In this document: positions 8,702 through 33,585 of the stretch, piece after piece | Position numbering within the stretch: the first letter of the stretch is position 1 | How the letters are laid out: the number at the start of each line of letters is the position of its first letter | Notes under the pieces: generated by a model | The model's database searches: none | The model's input: the letters and a program-made list of their open reading frames with translations, nothing else | Told to the model about the DNA's origin: nothing | Translations under genes and position numbers: made by a program | Origin: Verrucomicrobiota bacterium | Lineage (GTDB): Bacteria > Verrucomicrobiota > Verrucomicrobiia > Limisphaerales > SIBE01 | DNA: 33,585 nt | Direction: 5' to 3' | Assembly (NCBI GenBank): GCA_021733945.1 | Contig: JAIPJX010000043.1 | Span: forward strand, 1-33,585

Positions 8702-9140
8702 TGCTGCCCTTGCTGCCGGATTCGATCGAACGCCGAAGCCAGTCCCGGGCGTCATCCAATCGCAGCATCTGGCAGGCGTAACAGGAGAGATTGTACGGGA
8801 TGATTGCGTCCTGCGGAAACAGCGCGGCTGCAGGCAGCAGGGCATCCCATGCCTTCTCCAACCCGCCTCCCGGGACACGCCGCAAGGCATAAGCCCTGTG
8901 CAGCCAGCCACTCGCGCGGCCGGGGGAATTCTCGACCAGGAGTTGTGCGACCTCCAGCCCCAACGTCCATTGGTTGTCCTGTGCATGCATCAACCAGCGC
9001 ACTTCCAGGACGTCGGGATGCTCCCATACTTCCCTGGGGAGATGCGACAACTCAAGCGCGGCCTCGGCCGGGTTGCCCAGCTCCAGCCAACCCACTGCCG
9101 ACGAAAGAATATGATGATTTGGACTGTCGAACTCGTTCAT
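8637..9140 (-). CDS. TPR-like repeat protein of unknown function
   Basis: From the ATG at 9140 (MNEFDSPNHHILSSAVGWLELGN) the frame gives 167 aa of paired helices with TPR character: AVGWLELGNPAEAALELSHLP, then VAQLLVENSPGRASGWLHRAYAL, then IPYNLSCYACQMLRLDDARDWLRRS. Proteins of this size and start are common as stand-alone tetratricopeptide scaffolds; no partner is evident. The frame is open up to 9200, but the added residues have no helix pattern. Its 3' end overlaps the glycosylase gene by 65 bp in convergent orientation. No signal peptide, so probably cytoplasmic. Confidence 0.75.
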   Translation of the reverse strand: MNEFDSPNHHILSSAVGWLELGNPAEAALELSHLPREVWEHPDVLEVRWLMHAQDNQWTLGLEVAQLLVENSPGRASGWLHRAYALRRVPGGGLEKAWDALLPAAALFPQDAIIPYNLSCYACQMLRLDDARDWLRRSIESGSKGSIRQMALRDDDLEVLWPEIQGW

Positions 9141-9280: not shown

Positions 9281-9430
9281 ACGGGTAGCGTTTGTCGCGC
9301 TGCGACAAACCCGGCCGCGTTCAGCGGACGGTCCCGGTGGCATCACCGGGTTTCGCGGGCTTGGGTTCTCCCTCGGTTTGTTGTGTCGCTGGACGCGGCA
9401 CCTGTCTGTCGCAGCGCGACAGACTCCACC
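9281..9430. repeat. REP-like unit, copy 1 (two palindromes 94 bp apart)
   Basis: The unit begins with the palindrome TTTGTCGCGCTGCGACAAA (9290-9310 with flanking G/C) and ends with TCTGTCGCAGCGCGACAGA (9404-9424) followed by CTCCACC. Both hairpins share the core TGTCGC-N2/3-GCGACA. The region 9141-9280 before it holds no gene or other signal that I can see. The unit is repeated exactly 200 bp later with three mismatches in 150 bases. Confidence 0.85.
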
Positions 9431-9480
9431 ATGGTTGGCGGCTCCCTGGACCAGGGATCCATGGTGCACCCAGGTCGTTC

Positions 9481-9630
9481 ACGGGTAGCGTTTGTCGCGC
9501 TGCGACAAACCTGGCCGCGTTCAGCGGACGGTCCCGGTGGCATCACCCGGTTTCGCGGGCTTGGGTTCTCCCTCGGTTTGTTGTGCCGCTGGACGCGGCA
9601 CCTGTCTGTCGCAGCGCGACAGACTCCACC
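9481..9630. repeat. REP-like unit, copy 2
   Basis: Near-identical to the unit at 9281-9430 (hairpins at 9490-9510 and 9604-9624). Between the two copies is a linker (9431-9480) containing GGATCCATGGTGCACC that also occurs, slightly changed, at 10533-10590. The exact 200-bp period shows a recent tandem duplication. Confidence 0.85.
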
Positions 9631-9663
9631 CTAACTCCACCCTAACTCCACCCTAACTCCACC
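9631..9663. repeat. 11-bp tandem repeat, three copies
   Basis: Three perfect head-to-tail copies of CTAACTCCACC directly abut the REP unit, whose own last bases (ACTCCACC) look like the seed of the repeat. The same array occurs with seven copies downstream of the transposase gene. Confidence 0.9.
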
Positions 9664-9757
9664 TTCTTCCTCAATCGTCGGTTTGTCGGGAATCGAGCAC
9701 TGTTTTCTGAAAGGCCCGGGTGTTGCAGAAAACCCGGATGCCTGGTAACTTCAGGCC

Positions 9758-10231
9758 ATGTCCCGGCGGAGAATTCGGCACCTTCCGCACGAGGTCCCCT
9801 TGTGGGTGGATCCGAACAAGGAAACCTATTTCATCACGATCAACTGCCGCACACGCGGACTGAACCAGCTGGCTCGGAACGATGTCGCCGCATTCTTGTT
9901 TGAAACAGTGCGCCACCGGCAGCAAGCGTCTTTCTGGTGGCCCTGGCTGTTTCTTCTCATGCCCGATCACCTCCACGCCCTGCTTTCGTTCCCTCTTCCG
10001 GGGAAGCCGTTTCGTGGGGTGATCAGCAAGTGGAAGGAGTGGACGGCCAAACAAGTGGGCATTGACTGGCAGCTCGATTTCTTCGAACACCGGCTGCGTC
10101 GCGATGAAAGTCGGCGGGCAAAAGCCGACTACATTTTGGCCAATCCGGTCCGGGCCGGATTGGTGGCACGGCCTGAGGACTGGCCTTTTGTGTATTTCGC
10201 CGATGGGAGGAAACCGGAGTTCGCGGAATAA
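9758..10231 (+). CDS. REP-associated tyrosine transposase (RAYT, IS200-like Y1 HUH family)
   Basis: The 157-aa protein carries the HUH-type metal motif MPDHLHALLSF (His71, His73) and the tyrosine motif DYILANPVRAGLV, with Tyr125 as the likely nucleophile. Its length and the NPVRAGL signature match RAYT proteins, single-copy domesticated relatives of IS200/IS605 transposases that act on REP hairpins. The N-terminal RHLPHEVPLWV...YFITINC segment is typical of the group. It is framed on both sides by the hairpin units described here (copies 1-2 at left, copies 3-4 at right), as expected if these are its substrates. No ribosome site stands out at the ATG. All key residues are present, so the enzyme is probably functional. 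Confidence 0.92.
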   Translation: MSRRRIRHLPHEVPLWVDPNKETYFITINCRTRGLNQLARNDVAAFLFETVRHRQQASFWWPWLFLLMPDHLHALLSFPLPGKPFRGVISKWKEWTAKQVGIDWQLDFFEHRLRRDESRRAKADYILANPVRAGLVARPEDWPFVYFADGRKPEFAE

Positions 10232-10265
10232 TCTTCTGGGGATCGATTCCTCGCATCAGAACAGG

Positions 10266-10415
10266 TACGGGAGGGTTTGTCGCGCTGCGACAAACCTGTC
10301 CGCGTTCAGCGGACGGTCCCGGCGGCATCACCCGGTTTCGCGGGCTTGGGTTCTCCCTCGGTTTGTTGTGCCGCTGGACGCGGCACCTGTCTGTCGCAGC
10401 GCGACAGACTCCACC
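10266..10415. repeat. REP-like unit, copy 3
   Basis: Starts 34 bp after the transposase stop. Hairpins at 10275-10295 and 10389-10409 are identical to those of copies 1 and 2; only a few bases between them differ. Same orientation as the left-hand copies. Confidence 0.85.
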
Positions 10416-10492
10416 CTAACTCCACCCTAACTCCACCCTAACTCCACCCTAACTCCACCCTAACTCCACCCTAACTCCACCCTAACTCCACC
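10416..10492. repeat. 11-bp tandem repeat, seven copies
   Basis: Seven perfect copies of CTAACTCCACC follow REP unit copy 3, then a degenerate CTCCTCCACAC. The same repeat is present in three copies at 9631-9663. The difference points to slippage or to active copy-number change. Confidence 0.92.
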
Positions 10493-10509
10493 CTCCTCCA
10501 CACCCACTT

Positions 10510-10616
10510 GTCTGTCGCAGCGCGACAGACTCTACCATGGTTGGCGGCTCGCTCGGCCAGGGATCCATGGTGCACCGAAATCGTTCGCGGGTAGGGTTTG
10601 TCGCGCTGCGACAAAC
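10510..10616. repeat. REP-like hairpin pair, copy 4 (hairpin order reversed)
   Basis: Here the TCTGTCGCAGCGCGACAGA hairpin (10510-10530) comes first, then the linker with GGATCCATGGTGCACC, then the TTTGTCGCGCTGCGACAAA hairpin (10596-10616). This equals the junction between copies 1 and 2, so the whole locus is an alternating series of the two hairpin types. It ends 34 bp from the stop of the convergent gene at 10650 and could serve as its terminator. Confidence 0.85.
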
Positions 10617-10649
10617 CCACCGGGGACAGGGCACCATCGATTCGGAAGA

Positions 10650-11675
10650 CTAACCGCTGCTCGAAGCGCGCGCAATCCGGTCCCGCACTCCGTGCCATTC
10701 GGCGTCCGGCGGGACGGATTCAACCACGATCAACTCCGCACCAGCTGCGTCGCACTGATGGAGTTGAGCGTAGAAGGCCCGGGCGTAGGCCTCCGAGTCG
10801 TGGGGCAGGACGCAGACGTGGGCCAGCTTTCCGCCGGTCAGAATGATTCCGTGCGCGATCACATGGCAGGCGGAGAAAGCAATGCCCGTGGCCGCGACCT
10901 GACGCTCCAGATCTCCCGCATCCCGCCAGGTCCAGGCCACGAGCCTGGCTTTCGGGGCATAATGTTTGGACAGCTGCCCCGGGCTGCGCAACGGACCCGG
11001 TCCGGATCCCGACTGTCCCGAATGCAGGTCGATGTCTCCGGCCACCGCGATGAGGGATTCGAGCCTGATCATGCCGGGGCGAAGCACGCGGGCCGGCGTG
11101 ACGGTCAGGTCCAGCACGGTTGATTCAATGCCAACCTGAGACTGGCCGCCATCCACGATCAGGAGCGTTGGATCGTCCCACTGACCTCGGACATGCTCCG
11201 GGTGGGTGGGCGAGATCTGGTTGGAACGATTGGCACTGGGGGCGGCCAGAGGAAATCCGCACCGCCGAATCACCGCCTGAATAAACGGATGTAGGGGCCA
11301 CCGGATCCCGACCGTATCGCCCCCGGCGGTGACGATGGCCGGGATCCGTTCGGAACGGCGCAACACCAGGGTGAGCGGTCCCGGCCAGAACGCCTCGGCG
11401 AGTCGTTGAGCCTGGAGGGGCCAGTCCGCCACACAGGCACGGGCCATTTCCAGATCCGCCACATGCACAATCACCGGATTGGACGGCGGGCGACCCTTGA
11501 GGGCATAGATCCGGGCCACGGCAGCAGGATCAAACGCATTAGCAGCAAGGCCGTAGACGGTCTCGGTCGGGAGCGCCGCGACGTCCCCGGCCTTCAACCG
11601 TGCGCACACCGCTTCCACCGCAGCCTCGAAAGCGTCGCGGGTTTCGATCGATAAGATGTTGCCGGAATTGTCCAT
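10650..11675 (-). CDS. tsaC: L-threonylcarbamoyladenylate synthase (Sua5/YwlC/TsaC type)
   Basis: The 341-aa protein contains the YrdC domain (about residues 15-200) with ALPTETVYGLAANAFDP, IYALKGRPPSNPVIVHV, FWPGPLTLVLRR, GIRWPLHPFIQAVI, PLAAPSANRSNQISPT and GIESTVLDL, followed by the C-terminal Sua5 domain (SPGQLSKHYAPKARLV onward). It makes threonylcarbamoyl-AMP from threonine, bicarbonate and ATP, the first step of the universal t6A37 tRNA modification. The two-domain length fits Sua5/YwlC rather than short TsaC. The ATG at 11675 (MDNSGNILSIETRDAF) is chosen; another ATG at 11705 adds ten residues without conservation. It is divergent from trpD. Confidence 0.92.
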   Translation of the reverse strand: MDNSGNILSIETRDAFEAAVEAVCARLKAGDVAALPTETVYGLAANAFDPAAVARIYALKGRPPSNPVIVHVADLEMARACVADWPLQAQRLAEAFWPGPLTLVLRRSERIPAIVTAGGDTVGIRWPLHPFIQAVIRRCGFPLAAPSANRSNQISPTHPEHVRGQWDDPTLLIVDGGQSQVGIESTVLDLTVTPARVLRPGMIRLESLIAVAGDIDLHSGQSGSGPGPLRSPGQLSKHYAPKARLVAWTWRDAGDLERQVAATGIAFSACHVIAHGIILTGGKLAHVCVLPHDSEAYARAFYAQLHQCDAAGAELIVVESVPPDAEWHGVRDRIARASSSG

Positions 11676-11819
11676 CGTTGTGCCGGGATCCCGCCCGGGT
11701 GTCATTGGTTGGATCGGGTTGGCCGCCTCCCCGGAAAACGTCCGGACTCTAGCCGCAGAGCAGGAGCCGTGTCAAAATCCAGCTTTGAACTTTTTGTTCC
11801 GCCAGCCTAGCCTGCGGTT

Positions 11820-17012: not shown

Positions 17013-17015
17013 CTA
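17013..17015 (-). other. In-frame amber codon dividing the kinase-WD40 reading frame
   Basis: Read leftwards, the codons are GCT GTC TAG GTG GTT CAT GTG, with open, conserved WD40 coding on both sides. A single C-to-T change from CAG (Gln) would produce it (AVQVVHVSSGKI is a normal blade sequence). Confidence 0.9.
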
Positions 17016-19241
17016 GACAGCGGCACCGCGGTTGGGGCTGGACCCTGCATAGATGGCCAGCTTGGAACCGTCCCGTGAAAACGACAGATCGCGGACGCTC
17101 CACCAACCTTCCTCGGGTGCCTGCCACAGGATTGATTCCCGACCCGAATCCAGGTCGTACAAGGAGAGCGTCTTGTAGGCGGTGGTGGCGGCGAGAAGGT
17201 TGCGAACCGGCGAAAAGACCGCGCGCCCCTGATAGTTGGGATGGCCGGGGCTGGGATTCCCGCGATCCTCCCACGAGCGAACCAGCCGCCGGCTCGGGAC
17301 ATCCCACAAATCCACCTGTGGATTGCCGGAACCCTCGGCCCAGCCCGCGGCGAGGTGCTTGCCATCCGGAGAGAAACTGACAGAGAAACCCATCGTCGGC
17401 TTGTTGGTGAGCGTGACCAGGGCGCTGCTGCGGGTCAGCTGCCAGAGATAACGCCATTCCCAGCCGCGGAGGTCTTCCTCGCCGCGTTGCGGCCGATGCC
17501 GATCGAGCAGGCTGCGCGCCCGGCCCAGATTGTTCTGCTTGAATGACTGTTGGGCGAGATTCATGTCCGCCGCATAGAGCAACCGTTGGGATCGCCGCTG
17601 GTTTTCGACGGCCTTGAGTGCCTGCGCGTCGGCACGCTCATGCTCGATCTCGGCGATTTTTCGTTGCGCCGTTTCACTCTCCAACGCCTGGACCGCCACT
17701 TCGCGCAGACTGTTCTGCTCCCGCTCCGCCCGCGTGGCCCGGATCGCCTGCCAGGTGCTGACCGCGGCACCGATCATCAATGCTGCCGCCACGGCCGCCG
17801 CCGCCATGAACACGAGCTTGTTTCGGCGCAGGGTTTTCCGGAACCGGTAGGCCGCGCTGGGCGGCCGGGCGGTGACGGGCTCGCACTGCAGGTGCCTCTC
17901 GATGTCCGACGCAAGGCCGTTGGCCGTCTCGTAACGCCGCGCCCGGTCTTTCTCCAGGCACTTCATCACAATCCAATCCAGGTCGCCCTGAAGCTGCGAG
18001 ATCGTTTCCTTGAGGCGTAGGAGCCGACGTGAGGAGGCTCTGACATCCTCCTCGGAACCCCGGGTATCCGTCGAACCAGATTTGAGCCTCCTGACGCCGG
18101 CTCCTGCAAGCGTCTTGCTTAGCCGTGTGCTCGGGCGAACCGGTTCCGTCTGTCGGATCGTCTTGCGCATCGCCTCGATTCCCATCGACACGAGTTCTTT
18201 GCCGTCAAACGGGGGCGCGCCCACCAGCAATTCGTACAGCAACACCCCCAGGCTGTAGATGTCGCTGCGGGTATCGATATCCAACCCGCTCATCTCGGCT
18301 TGTTCCGGACTCATATACGCCGGGGTGCCAATAAACTGGTGCCATTGCGTGTAAACGGTCGCGTCTGTCAGACGGCCTTCGGTGGCTTTGGCGATTCCGA
18401 AATCAATGACCTTTGGTACGGGCACGCCGTCATGGAGCGTGACGAGGATGTTCGACGGCTTGATGTCGCGGTGAATGATGCCCTTCTGGTGTGCGTGCTG
18501 GATGGCGTGGCAAACCGGAATAAACAGTTCGAGCCGTTCCTGGGTCGAGAGTCTGTTGTTGTCGCAGTACTCGGTGATCGGCACGCCGCGCACCAGTTCC
18601 ATGACGAAATAGGGACGGCCGGCACCGATTCCATTCCAGCTGCGGGCGGACAGACGGCCCTCTCCAGGGTGGGCCCTGTGGTGGGGTCCGTGGCAGGGCC
18701 TGTCGCGTTGCGACAGGCCAGGTTGTCGCAGCGCAACACCCTCCACCTTGGATTCAGGGGCATCCTGTGCCGGGGACTCTTGATCCAGGCTGAAGCCATT
18801 TTCCGTTGCTCCGGCATCCAGCACTTTGGCGATGTTGGGATGGTCCATCATGGCCAGAGCCTGCCGCTCCGCCTCGAAGCGCGCGACGACCGCCCTGGTG
18901 TCCATGCCCAGCTTGATGACTTTCAAGGCCACTCGACGACGGACGGGCTCGGTCTGTTCCGCCACATAGACCACGCCGCAGCCGCCTTCGCCGATCTGCT
19001 CCAGCAGTTTATAGCGACCGACCAGCGTGCCGACGCTTTCCGGAGCAGGCGACGCCATGGTCGGGGCTTCCTCCAGAAAGATGCGGTCCGGAGTCTCGTG
19101 GCTCGCGAGGAGGGATTCCACTTCCCGGCGCAACTCGGGATCGGGGCACGACCGGCTCAGGTAGTCCGCCCGCTGCGCCTCGGTCTCCAAGGCCACGGCG
19201 GCTTCGAAAATGGCTTCGATCTTGTCGAAAGGACTGCTCAT
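17013..19241 (-). CDS. Ser/Thr protein kinase with membrane helix and start of WD40 propeller
   Basis: This 742-aa protein has a helical N-terminal segment (about 1-70), then a PknB-type kinase with IGEGGCGVVYVAEQ, Lys107 (VALKVIKLG), HRDIKPSN (Asp259), DFG (Asp280) and GTPAYMSPEQA; all catalytic residues are present. A membrane helix (about 474-497) and a coiled coil (about 500-570) follow, then the first WD40 blades. It should sit in the inner membrane and phosphorylate unknown targets. The gene follows the ECF sigma gene by 77 bp, the usual partnership in this phylum. Two stretches, residues 149-207 and about 379-409, are absent from the paralogue and are encoded by dispersed repeats; the first lies between the N-lobe and the hinge, so activity may be affected. 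Confidence 0.9.
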   Translation of the reverse strand: MSSPFDKIEAIFEAAVALETEAQRADYLSRSCPDPELRREVESLLASHETPDRIFLEEAPTMASPAPESVGTLVGRYKLLEQIGEGGCGVVYVAEQTEPVRRRVALKVIKLGMDTRAVVARFEAERQALAMMDHPNIAKVLDAGATENGFSLDQESPAQDAPESKVEGVALRQPGLSQRDRPCHGPHHRAHPGEGRLSARSWNGIGAGRPYFVMELVRGVPITEYCDNNRLSTQERLELFIPVCHAIQHAHQKGIIHRDIKPSNILVTLHDGVPVPKVIDFGIAKATEGRLTDATVYTQWHQFIGTPAYMSPEQAEMSGLDIDTRSDIYSLGVLLYELLVGAPPFDGKELVSMGIEAMRKTIRQTEPVRPSTRLSKTLAGAGVRRLKSGSTDTRGSEEDVRASSRRLLRLKETISQLQGDLDWIVMKCLEKDRARRYETANGLASDIERHLQCEPVTARPPSAAYRFRKTLRRNKLVFMAAAAVAAALMIGAAVSTWQAIRATRAEREQNSLREVAVQALESETAQRKIAEIEHERADAQALKAVENQRRSQRLLYAADMNLAQQSFKQNNLGRARSLLDRHRPQRGEEDLRGWEWRYLWQLTRSSALVTLTNKPTMGFSVSFSPDGKHLAAGWAEGSGNPQVDLWDVPSRRLVRSWEDRGNPSPGHPNYQGRAVFSPVRNLLAATTAYKTLSLYDLDSGRESILWQAPEEGWWSVRDLSFSRDGSKLAIYAGSSPNRGAAV
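18017..18107. repeat. 91-bp palindromic repeat inside the kinase gene
   Basis: The ends, 18017-18040 and 18084-18107, are inverted repeats (21 of 24 bases) starting GTAGGAGCCGACGT. The element matches in ends, length and internal CCTCGGAA the 89-bp palindromes of the array at the window's right end (for example 32872-32960). It is translated as about 30 residues in place of about 13 in the paralogue. Confidence 0.8.
18621..18797. repeat. 177-bp in-frame insertion carrying REP-like hairpins, inside the kinase gene
   Basis: The paralogue reads GATETGRPFFAMELV; here GATEN and GRPYFVMELV are split by 59 codons. The insert contains the hairpin CCTGTCGCGTTGCGACAGG (within 18697-18719), then GTTGTCGCAGCGCAACAC and CTCCACC. 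These are the same TGTCGC/GCGACA cores and the same trailing heptamer as in the units at 9281-10616. Confidence 0.8.
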
Positions 19242-32466: not shown

Positions 32467-32751
32467 ATGATACTCACTGCACGATGGCTTTTGATGGGAT
32501 GGATCCTTGGATTTGCCGTCCTTCAGACAGGTGCGGCTCCGGCGGATCCTGTTCGGGACTTCGTTCTGAAGTATTGTTCCGACTGCCACGAGAGCGAAGT
32601 CAGCAAGGGCGGATTGAACCTGGTTGAGGAAGACGGCGAAACGCTGCTGGATCGCACCATGATCCTCTACGGTTCAAACCTCGGCAATGCCAACACCCAC
32701 GTGACCACGAATTTGCCACCCAACTCCCAAACGGACGAATCAGGTAAGTGA
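32467..32751 (+). pseudogene. Chimeric remnant: start of planctomycete-type cytochrome c gene fused to end of a DUF1552 gene
   Basis: The 94-aa frame begins with a signal peptide ([20 protein letters not shown]) and [26 protein letters not shown], whose YCSDCH (Cys37, Cys40, His41) is the haem-binding start of DUF1592-type planctomycete cytochrome proteins (usually over 700 aa). At about residue 52 it switches to [22 protein letters not shown]...NLP, which is the C-terminal signature of DUF1552 proteins, normally encoded by the next gene. A deletion of several kb joining the two is the simplest reading. The frame then runs into the tandem array, which supplies the last residues and stop. It is unlikely to be functional. 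Confidence 0.75.
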
Positions 32752-33585
32752 AGGGTTCTCCCGCAGAGGCGCAGAGACGCAGAGGGGGGAGTGGATTTTT
32801 TCTCTCTGCGTCTCCGCGTCTCTGCGGGATATATTCCTTCTCAGGGCCTGTCTGAAAATTCCAATCCCATGGTAGGAGCCGATGTGACGAGGCTCCATAT
32901 GCCTCGGAAAACGCCCGGTTTGAATGCTGAAGAAGAGGACCTTCTGACGTCGGCTCCTACTTTTCAAACACGCTCAGGATTCAAGAAGCGGGGGGATACG
33001 GTGTTCGATCATCCGTGGGCAGTGACTCGCAACGAACGCCCCCCCAAAATCCAAAACGGACGAATCAGGTAAGTGAAGGGTTCTCCCGCAGAGGCGCAGA
33101 GACGCAGAGGGGGGAGTGGATTTTTTCTCTCCGCGTCTCCGCGTCTCTGCGGGATATATTCCTTCTCAGGGCCTGGCTGAGAATTCCAATCACCCTGGTA
33201 GGTGCCGAGGTGACGAGGCTCCATATGCCTCGGAAAACGCCCGGTTTGAAAGCTGAAGGAGAGAGCCTTCTGACGTCGGCTCCTACTTTTCAAACACGCT
33301 CAGGATTCAAGAAGCGGGGGGATACGGTGTTCGATCATCCGCGGGCAGTGACTCACAACGAACGCCCCCCCCAACTCCCAAACGGACCAATCAGATAAGT
33401 GAAGGGTTCTCCCGCAGAGGCGCAGAGACGCAGAGGGGGGAGTGGATTTTTTCTCTGCGTCTCCGCGTCTCTGCGGGATATATTCCTTCTCAGGGCCTGG
33501 CTGAGAATTCCAATCACCCTGGTAGGTGCCGAGGTGACGAGGCTCCATATGCCTCGGAAAACGCCCGGTTTGAAAGCTGAAGGAG
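32719..33585. repeat. Tandem array of about 325-bp units, at least 2.6 copies, leaving the window
   Basis: The landmark AAGGGTTCTCCCGCAGAGGC starts at 32751, 33076 and 33402, so the period is 325-326 bp. Each unit has two palindromes: a 69-bp one (in unit 1, arms 32760-32784 and 32804-32828, 23 of 25 bases paired, built from CGCAGAG and CTCTGCG) and an 89-bp one (32872-32960; 33198-33286; third copy from 33524, cut by the window edge) starting GTAGG and ending CGTCGGCTCCTAC. Short open frames here repeat the same peptides and have no coding character. No gene is present in 32752-33585. Confidence 0.92.

Follow-up and report, generated by a model that had tools for sequence, protein, structure and literature searches.

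A RAYT gene framed by eight perfect hairpins

RAYT-REP pairs are a known bacterial kind of system, described as "domesticated transposases". The window, a 33,585-nt stretch of DNA from an uncultured Verrucomicrobiota bacterium, constitutes one entire contig (G000:C215) of a 5.4-Mb draft genome and contains one such gene surrounded by hairpin repeats:

9284..9430, no strand assigned: REPIN unit 1, with hairpin A at 9290-9310 (+) and inverted hairpin b at 9404-9424 (-), GTGG foot at 9426-9429
9484..9630, no strand assigned: REPIN unit 2, with hairpin A at 9490-9510 (+) and hairpin b at 9604-9624 (-)
9758..10231, + strand: RAYT / TnpA-REP gene, 157 aa, by profile, structure search and alignment
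10269..10415, no strand assigned: REPIN unit 3, with hairpin A at 10275-10295 (+), degenerate foot GGAG at 10270-10273, and hairpin b at 10389-10409 (-)
10505..10617, no strand assigned: inter-REPIN spacer copy, 113 bp, with hairpin b at 10510-10530 (-), foot GTAG at 10532-10535, the spacer, and hairpin A at 10596-10616 (+), foot GTAG at 10591-10594; repeat family D3, 91%

The open reading frame at 9758-10231 is a genuine RAYT among small hairpin repeats. It scored 88.9 bits against the NCBIfam profile NF047646 (REP-associated tyrosine transposase; cut-off 80), and its top match was 4er8, the structure of E. coli TnpA-REP with a bound REP hairpin, both by sequence (E 3e-11) and by the fold of a structure model with a pLDDT of 81 (E 5e-7, with IS200/IS605 transposases next). 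The HUH motif is H71-L-H73, in MPDHLH, and the catalytic tyrosine is Tyr125, in DYILANPVRAG; H71, H73, W104 and Y125 are without change across an alignment of 15 RAYT homologues. With hairpins on both sides of the gene, these results bear out the original prediction of a complete RAYT locus with intact HUH and tyrosine motifs. A Pfam search with the protein gave no match, and a plasmid search returned distant relatives only (approximately 30% identical). An IS200/IS605 insertion sequence was rejected as an identity for the element, since Y125 is followed by N129 without a Y...Q tyrosine motif and the element is single-copy: the gene occurs once in its own genome, where the next-closest sequence is 46% identical.

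The eight hairpins framing the gene are perfect, with 9-bp stems and the loop GCT, and all are present where they had been predicted: TTTGTCGCGCTGCGACAAA at 9291, 9491, 10276 and 10597, and TCTGTCGCAGCGCGACAGA at 9405, 9605, 10390 and 10511. End A reads GTAG-n-GTTTGTCGC-GCT-GCGACAAAC, while end b, on the opposite strand, reads GTGG-A-GTCTGTCGC-GCT-GCGACAGAC. The REPIN unit is thus an asymmetric 147 bp with two unlike ends (GTAG/TTTG and GTGG/TCTG), and the order of elements along the locus is A-b, A-b, RAYT, A-b, b-A. Three of the four alternating hairpin pairs originally proposed are A-b REPINs, but the fourth is a copied spacer (b-hairpin, spacer, A-hairpin), in which 10510-10616 differs from 9404-9510 at 9 of 107 positions. 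The three REPIN units, expected to be almost identical over 150 bp, are indeed 95-98% identical to each other, though over 147 bp, with 3 differences between units 1 and 2, 7 between units 1 and 3, and 4 between units 2 and 3; the left pair repeats with a period of exactly 200 bp, but is not the perfect duplication that had been claimed. Nor does the CTCCACC tail represent a departure, as had been supposed. Read on the other strand it becomes GGTGGAG, which contains the GTGG form of the canonical GT[AG]G foot, and the GTGG and GTAG of opposite ends share exact register.

The hairpin family is dispersed across the genome

Genome counts were obtained by whole-genome searches and from individually retrieved stretches. 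The hairpins do occur elsewhere in the genome, as the original prediction required: allowing 2 mismatches, 54 sites were found against 0 for a reversed-pattern control, and the core TCGCGCTGCGA was present in 158 copies against 1 for the corresponding control. A covariance model of one REP end gave at least 115 matches, a lower bound obtained from 150 scored candidates. The eight hairpins and the dispersed family are not due to chance. Many of the dispersed sites are inverted pairs containing the interior of the window REPIN unit, i.e. two inverted REPs dispersed as a unit with a shared interior, and the full-length 147-bp copies are 70-84% identical to the window units. A compact subfamily also exists (GTCGGTCGCGCTGCGACCGAC, 3 bp, inverted GTGCCTCGCGCTGCGAGGCAC). 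Given these full-length identities, the dispersed set is older than the local one, and REPIN dispersal may have finished. Of the recent or ongoing activity originally proposed, the near-identity of the local units stands, but the dispersed copies do not share it, and tandem duplication or gene conversion would explain local near-identity equally well.

The hairpins lie mainly between genes, only 2 of 78 testable ones falling within predicted genes compared to 47% of random positions at the same loci, figures which are approximate because genes were predicted by a simple codon score. Such extragenic, strongly folding hairpins could also be ordinary elements of the host, acting as terminators or in RNA stability, with the RAYT merely situated among some of them. 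This is extremely improbable, however, given that the GT[AG]G foot is strand-specific, occurring within 12 nt of the core hairpin on the 5' side in 95 and on the 3' side in 2 of 112 distinct hairpins at the retrieved loci. The 147-bp units moreover have a conserved interior sequence, and an Rfam search with the hairpin repeats found no family.

Two further repeat features were seen in the window. A decayed compact REPIN of the family lies at 18691..18748, in frame within a kinase gene (CDS 17013-19241, - strand), where a stretch of approximately 60 inserted residues in the Ser/Thr kinase domain parts ...DAGATENG from RPYFVMELVRG. At 32725-33585, 2.6 copies of a 326-bp repeat stand in tandem; its CGCAGAGACGCAGAG / CTCTGCGTCTCTGCG arms are inverted, and this motif recurs beside REPs elsewhere in the genome (e.g. 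at loci L011, L017 and L076).

RAYT clade and hairpin apex are matched across relatives

When the R1 model was run across 58 genomes, the own genome gave 85 matches, G045 gave 46 and the others 0-6. G045, from the same order as the window, encodes a RAYT 68% identical to that of the window. In G001, from the same genus but with no close RAYT (best match E 1.7e-10), the repeats are near absent and the model gave 0 matches, so this relative without the gene does not carry the hairpins, a finding in keeping with the original prediction. In the core census, the genomes other than the own one that carry a RAYT of the same clade (G045, G040 and G024) exceeded the rest (Mann-Whitney p = 0.004).

At least 13 RAYT homologues, 56-71% identical, are accompanied by GT[AG]G hairpins that share the CGC-GCT-GCG apex and whose outer stems covary. 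For a census of 26 RAYT loci, cores were chosen by their apex only, because choosing perfectly complementary hairpins would have made the covariation circular. Within 1 kb of the 26 homologues in the named genomes, 54 apex cores were found: the 15 homologues with an identity of at least 57% account for 53, and the 11 distant homologues for one. The GT[AG]G foot was present at 50 of the 54, and outer stem pairs switch between G-C, T-A and C-G on both sides. Of the close loci, L099 and L104 each have a single core within the 1-kb range, and neither has one that passes a strict hairpin-plus-foot filter. The GTAG hairpins of more distant RAYTs have different apices. The foot and apex thus stay constant and the outer stem varies through compensatory changes, and this comparative evidence suggests that foot and apex are read, whereas the outer stem would merely need to pair. 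The same reading has been reported for group 3 enzymes from in-vitro selection (PMC8266576).

The co-occurrence of RAYT and REP is strong but not strict, since G049 (97% complete) lacks a RAYT of this clade yet carries same-apex REPs: 57 cores (control 2) that are REP-like and have a GGTAG foot. Its sole RAYT is of the distant type, with no same-apex REP beside it. In this distant RAYT (C12:147618-148118; L275, L279), a repetitive stretch of low complexity (RRRSQSAAAEGAAAAAVCDRRSPDRRL) is inserted between the HUH motif and the tyrosine. G037 (30 against 8 in the core census) was rejected as a second counter-example, as its cores lack foot or stem and are attributable to chance.

The near absence of the hairpins in G001 and the matching of apex to RAYT clade both count against ordinary host elements, an explanation that foot polarity and RAYT-apex matching already disfavour. 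The G049 case could instead favour the 147-bp units being MITEs of another transposase with the RAYT as a passenger, as could the 16 RAYT/Y1-like genes of the own genome and the fact that the whole unit forms a long imperfect inverted repeat. Nevertheless, the densest array sits at the window RAYT locus, RAYTs of the same clade adjoin same-apex hairpins in at least 13 other genomes, and a second RAYT of the own genome likewise lies among its own, different REPs, which makes a passenger role very unlikely.

This second RAYT (C24:24614-25033; L032, L086) is 46% identical to that of the window. Its REP family, GTAGGGCGAAGCGTCCCGCTGAGC, has 132 genome copies (control 0) and is unrelated to the window family; GGTAGCGGGGGA-type repeats occur at its REP. 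Two separate RAYT-REP systems apparently coexist in one genome, providing a natural specificity test. A third family member (C148) lacks GT[AG]G hairpins in the stretch examined and sits among other repeats. The 16 NF047646 matches in the genome include many longer genes (frames of 287-486 aa), mostly matching the C-terminal half of the model, which presumably belong to other Y1 subclasses.

Proposed mechanism

Taken together, the locus is very probably a REPtron, in which one RAYT gene, encoding an HUH/Y1 single-strand transposase, lies among the REP/REPIN copies that its product would recognise. This reading draws on the family and fold, the intact catalytic residues and the feet in register at both ends, as well as on the extragenic inverted pairs throughout the genome and the matching of RAYT clade to hairpin apex across many genomes. 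In the single-stranded state (e.g. on the lagging-strand template), a REP would fold into GT[AG]G plus a perfect hairpin. The RAYT would then read the invariant CGC-GCT-GCG apex along with the foot, tolerating any outer stem that pairs, and Tyr125 would cut beside the hairpin with the metal held by H71 and H73. Strand transfer could subsequently spread REPIN units to extragenic sites. The RAYT probably moves the surrounding hairpin repeats, and we infer that the protein is still active.

Place among known systems

Judged by the features tested, the locus is a REPtron with REPINs, and it offers a clear RAYT-REP pair outside proteobacteria in which comparison across genomes points to the features read by the enzyme. 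It resembles the E. coli REPtron (4er8; group 2 / subclass 2.2) in the RAYT fold, HUH plus Tyr, the GT[AG]G foot and inverted REP pairs around one gene, and residues W94, Q95, E100, H101 and R104 of E. coli TnpA-REP correspond to W104, Q105, E110, H111 and R114 of the window RAYT. The two proteins are, however, only approximately 30% identical, and the window hairpins are short, unbulged perfect palindromes with the fixed CGC-GCT-GCG apex. Assignment to group 2 / subclass 2.2 (long bulged hairpins, WE, YIHYNP) was rejected, the window having perfect 9-bp stems, WQ and YILANP.

Subclass 2.5 / group 3 is characterised by DH[LF]H, WQ, YI[VI]ANP and short perfect hairpins (Table 1, PMC6006769). 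The REPtrons of this group in Stenotrophomonas, Pseudomonas and Marinomonas Mb (PMC8266576, PMC6006769) share with the window DHLH, WQ, YI.ANP and a length of approximately 150 aa, as well as short perfect hairpins, a foot one nucleotide from the stem and loop conservation. In contrast, the window RAYT has E at the E100 position where subclass 2.5 has D, its host is a Verrucomicrobiota bacterium, and each end contains a second hairpin. Judged by motifs alone, the RAYT would fit subclass 2.5 best, but not fully. The REPINs of Pseudomonas fluorescens (PMC3116915) likewise consist of two REPs in inverted orientation that move together as a miniature element and are dispersed between genes, whereas the window unit is distinguished by its 147-bp length, its asymmetry and its GTAG/TTTG and GTGG/TCTG ends.

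Within the phylum, GTAG REP families have already been described in Opitutus terrae (PMC3733652), which also has GTAG/GTGG-footed REPs, intragenic copies and RAYT genes. The Opitutaceae RAYTs found here use another apex, GGGTC..GACCC. The distinct family originally suggested therefore holds at the level of the REP sequence, whose CGC-GCT-GCG apex is common to other Verrucomicrobiota RAYTs, but not as a distinct kind of system. No description of a REP family with this apex was found in the literature text; published family sequences stand in figures, which leaves its newness unproven.

Second hairpins and guide-side arrays

Two less usual features were observed, namely a second hairpin within each REP end and tandem arrays on the guide side:

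9311..9331, + strand: inner hairpin of end A, CCGC-GTTCA-GCGG, recurring in the remaining A ends
9583..9601, - strand: inner hairpin of end b, GTGCCGC-GTCCA-GCGGCAC, recurring in the remaining b ends of REPINs
9623..9663, - strand: guide-side array (TTAGGGTGGAG) x 3.7, directly adjoining the 5' foot of unit 2 hairpin b
10408..10494, - strand: guide-side array (TTAGGGTGGAG) x 7.9, directly adjoining the 5' foot of unit 3 hairpin b

DNA folding of each REPIN end was stronger than that of all 200 dinucleotide shuffles, with z-scores of -3.3 and -4.5 for the two-hairpin ends. The first stem was 100% paired in 22 sequences, with both partners substituted in two of the pairs, and the full 147-nt unit can be folded as a single long imperfect inverted repeat with its ends pairing together.

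Of 112 hairpins, 13 had a perfect tandem array immediately beside the 5' foot and none had one at the 3' foot (Fisher p = 0.0002), a p-value that is optimistic because several 9-nt arrays are related copies of one subfamily and not all independent. With mismatches allowed, the numbers were 18/112 (16%) and 1/112 (1%), the sole 3'-foot array being the neighbouring REP's own. Array periods range from 8 to 17 nt and lengths reach 85 nt (100 nt examined), with one guide per unit. At other RAYT loci, 2 of 90 REPs had arrays, both in other Verrucomicrobiota, and none were seen at the REPs of G045 and other relatives (0/36 and 0/41). The RAYT/REP papers examined contained no report of such arrays, although this does not prove that none exists.

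The arrays probably arose by simple slippage during replication of the G-rich foot at the hairpin, with no role for the RAYT. Their units are uniform within a locus but differ between loci (14 distinct units in 21 arrays), as local slippage predicts, and five arrays meet a G-quadruplex pattern. Slippage accounts less readily for their restriction to the foot side, although this comparison is confounded by the 3' side lying inside the REPIN and possibly being constrained, or for their rarity at other hairpins (2/57, both poly-A) and absence at GGTGGA sites away from cores (0/201). It is doubtful that the RAYT itself makes or keeps the arrays by repeated nicking and rejoining, with the two-hairpin ends forming a recognition architecture peculiar to this Verrucomicrobiota RAYT clade. 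If it did, the arrays would be a record of transposase action and would present the RAYT with a series of guides and cut sites to choose from. Should guide-side arrays prove general, they would serve as a new and inexpensive marker of REP processing.

Probable insertion site

The REPtron of the window is located between a Sua5 gene (10650-11705; Sua5 by Pfam) and a neighbouring gene starting at 9140. The gene arrangement around Sua5 differs in G004. In G001, the same two genes are 57 bp apart without a RAYT, and in other members of the family (G007, G005, G003 and G002) they are likewise close together with the RAYT absent. As the flanking genes are adjacent in relatives, the simplest reading is that the RAYT locus was probably gained at the Sua5 site in the lineage of the window.
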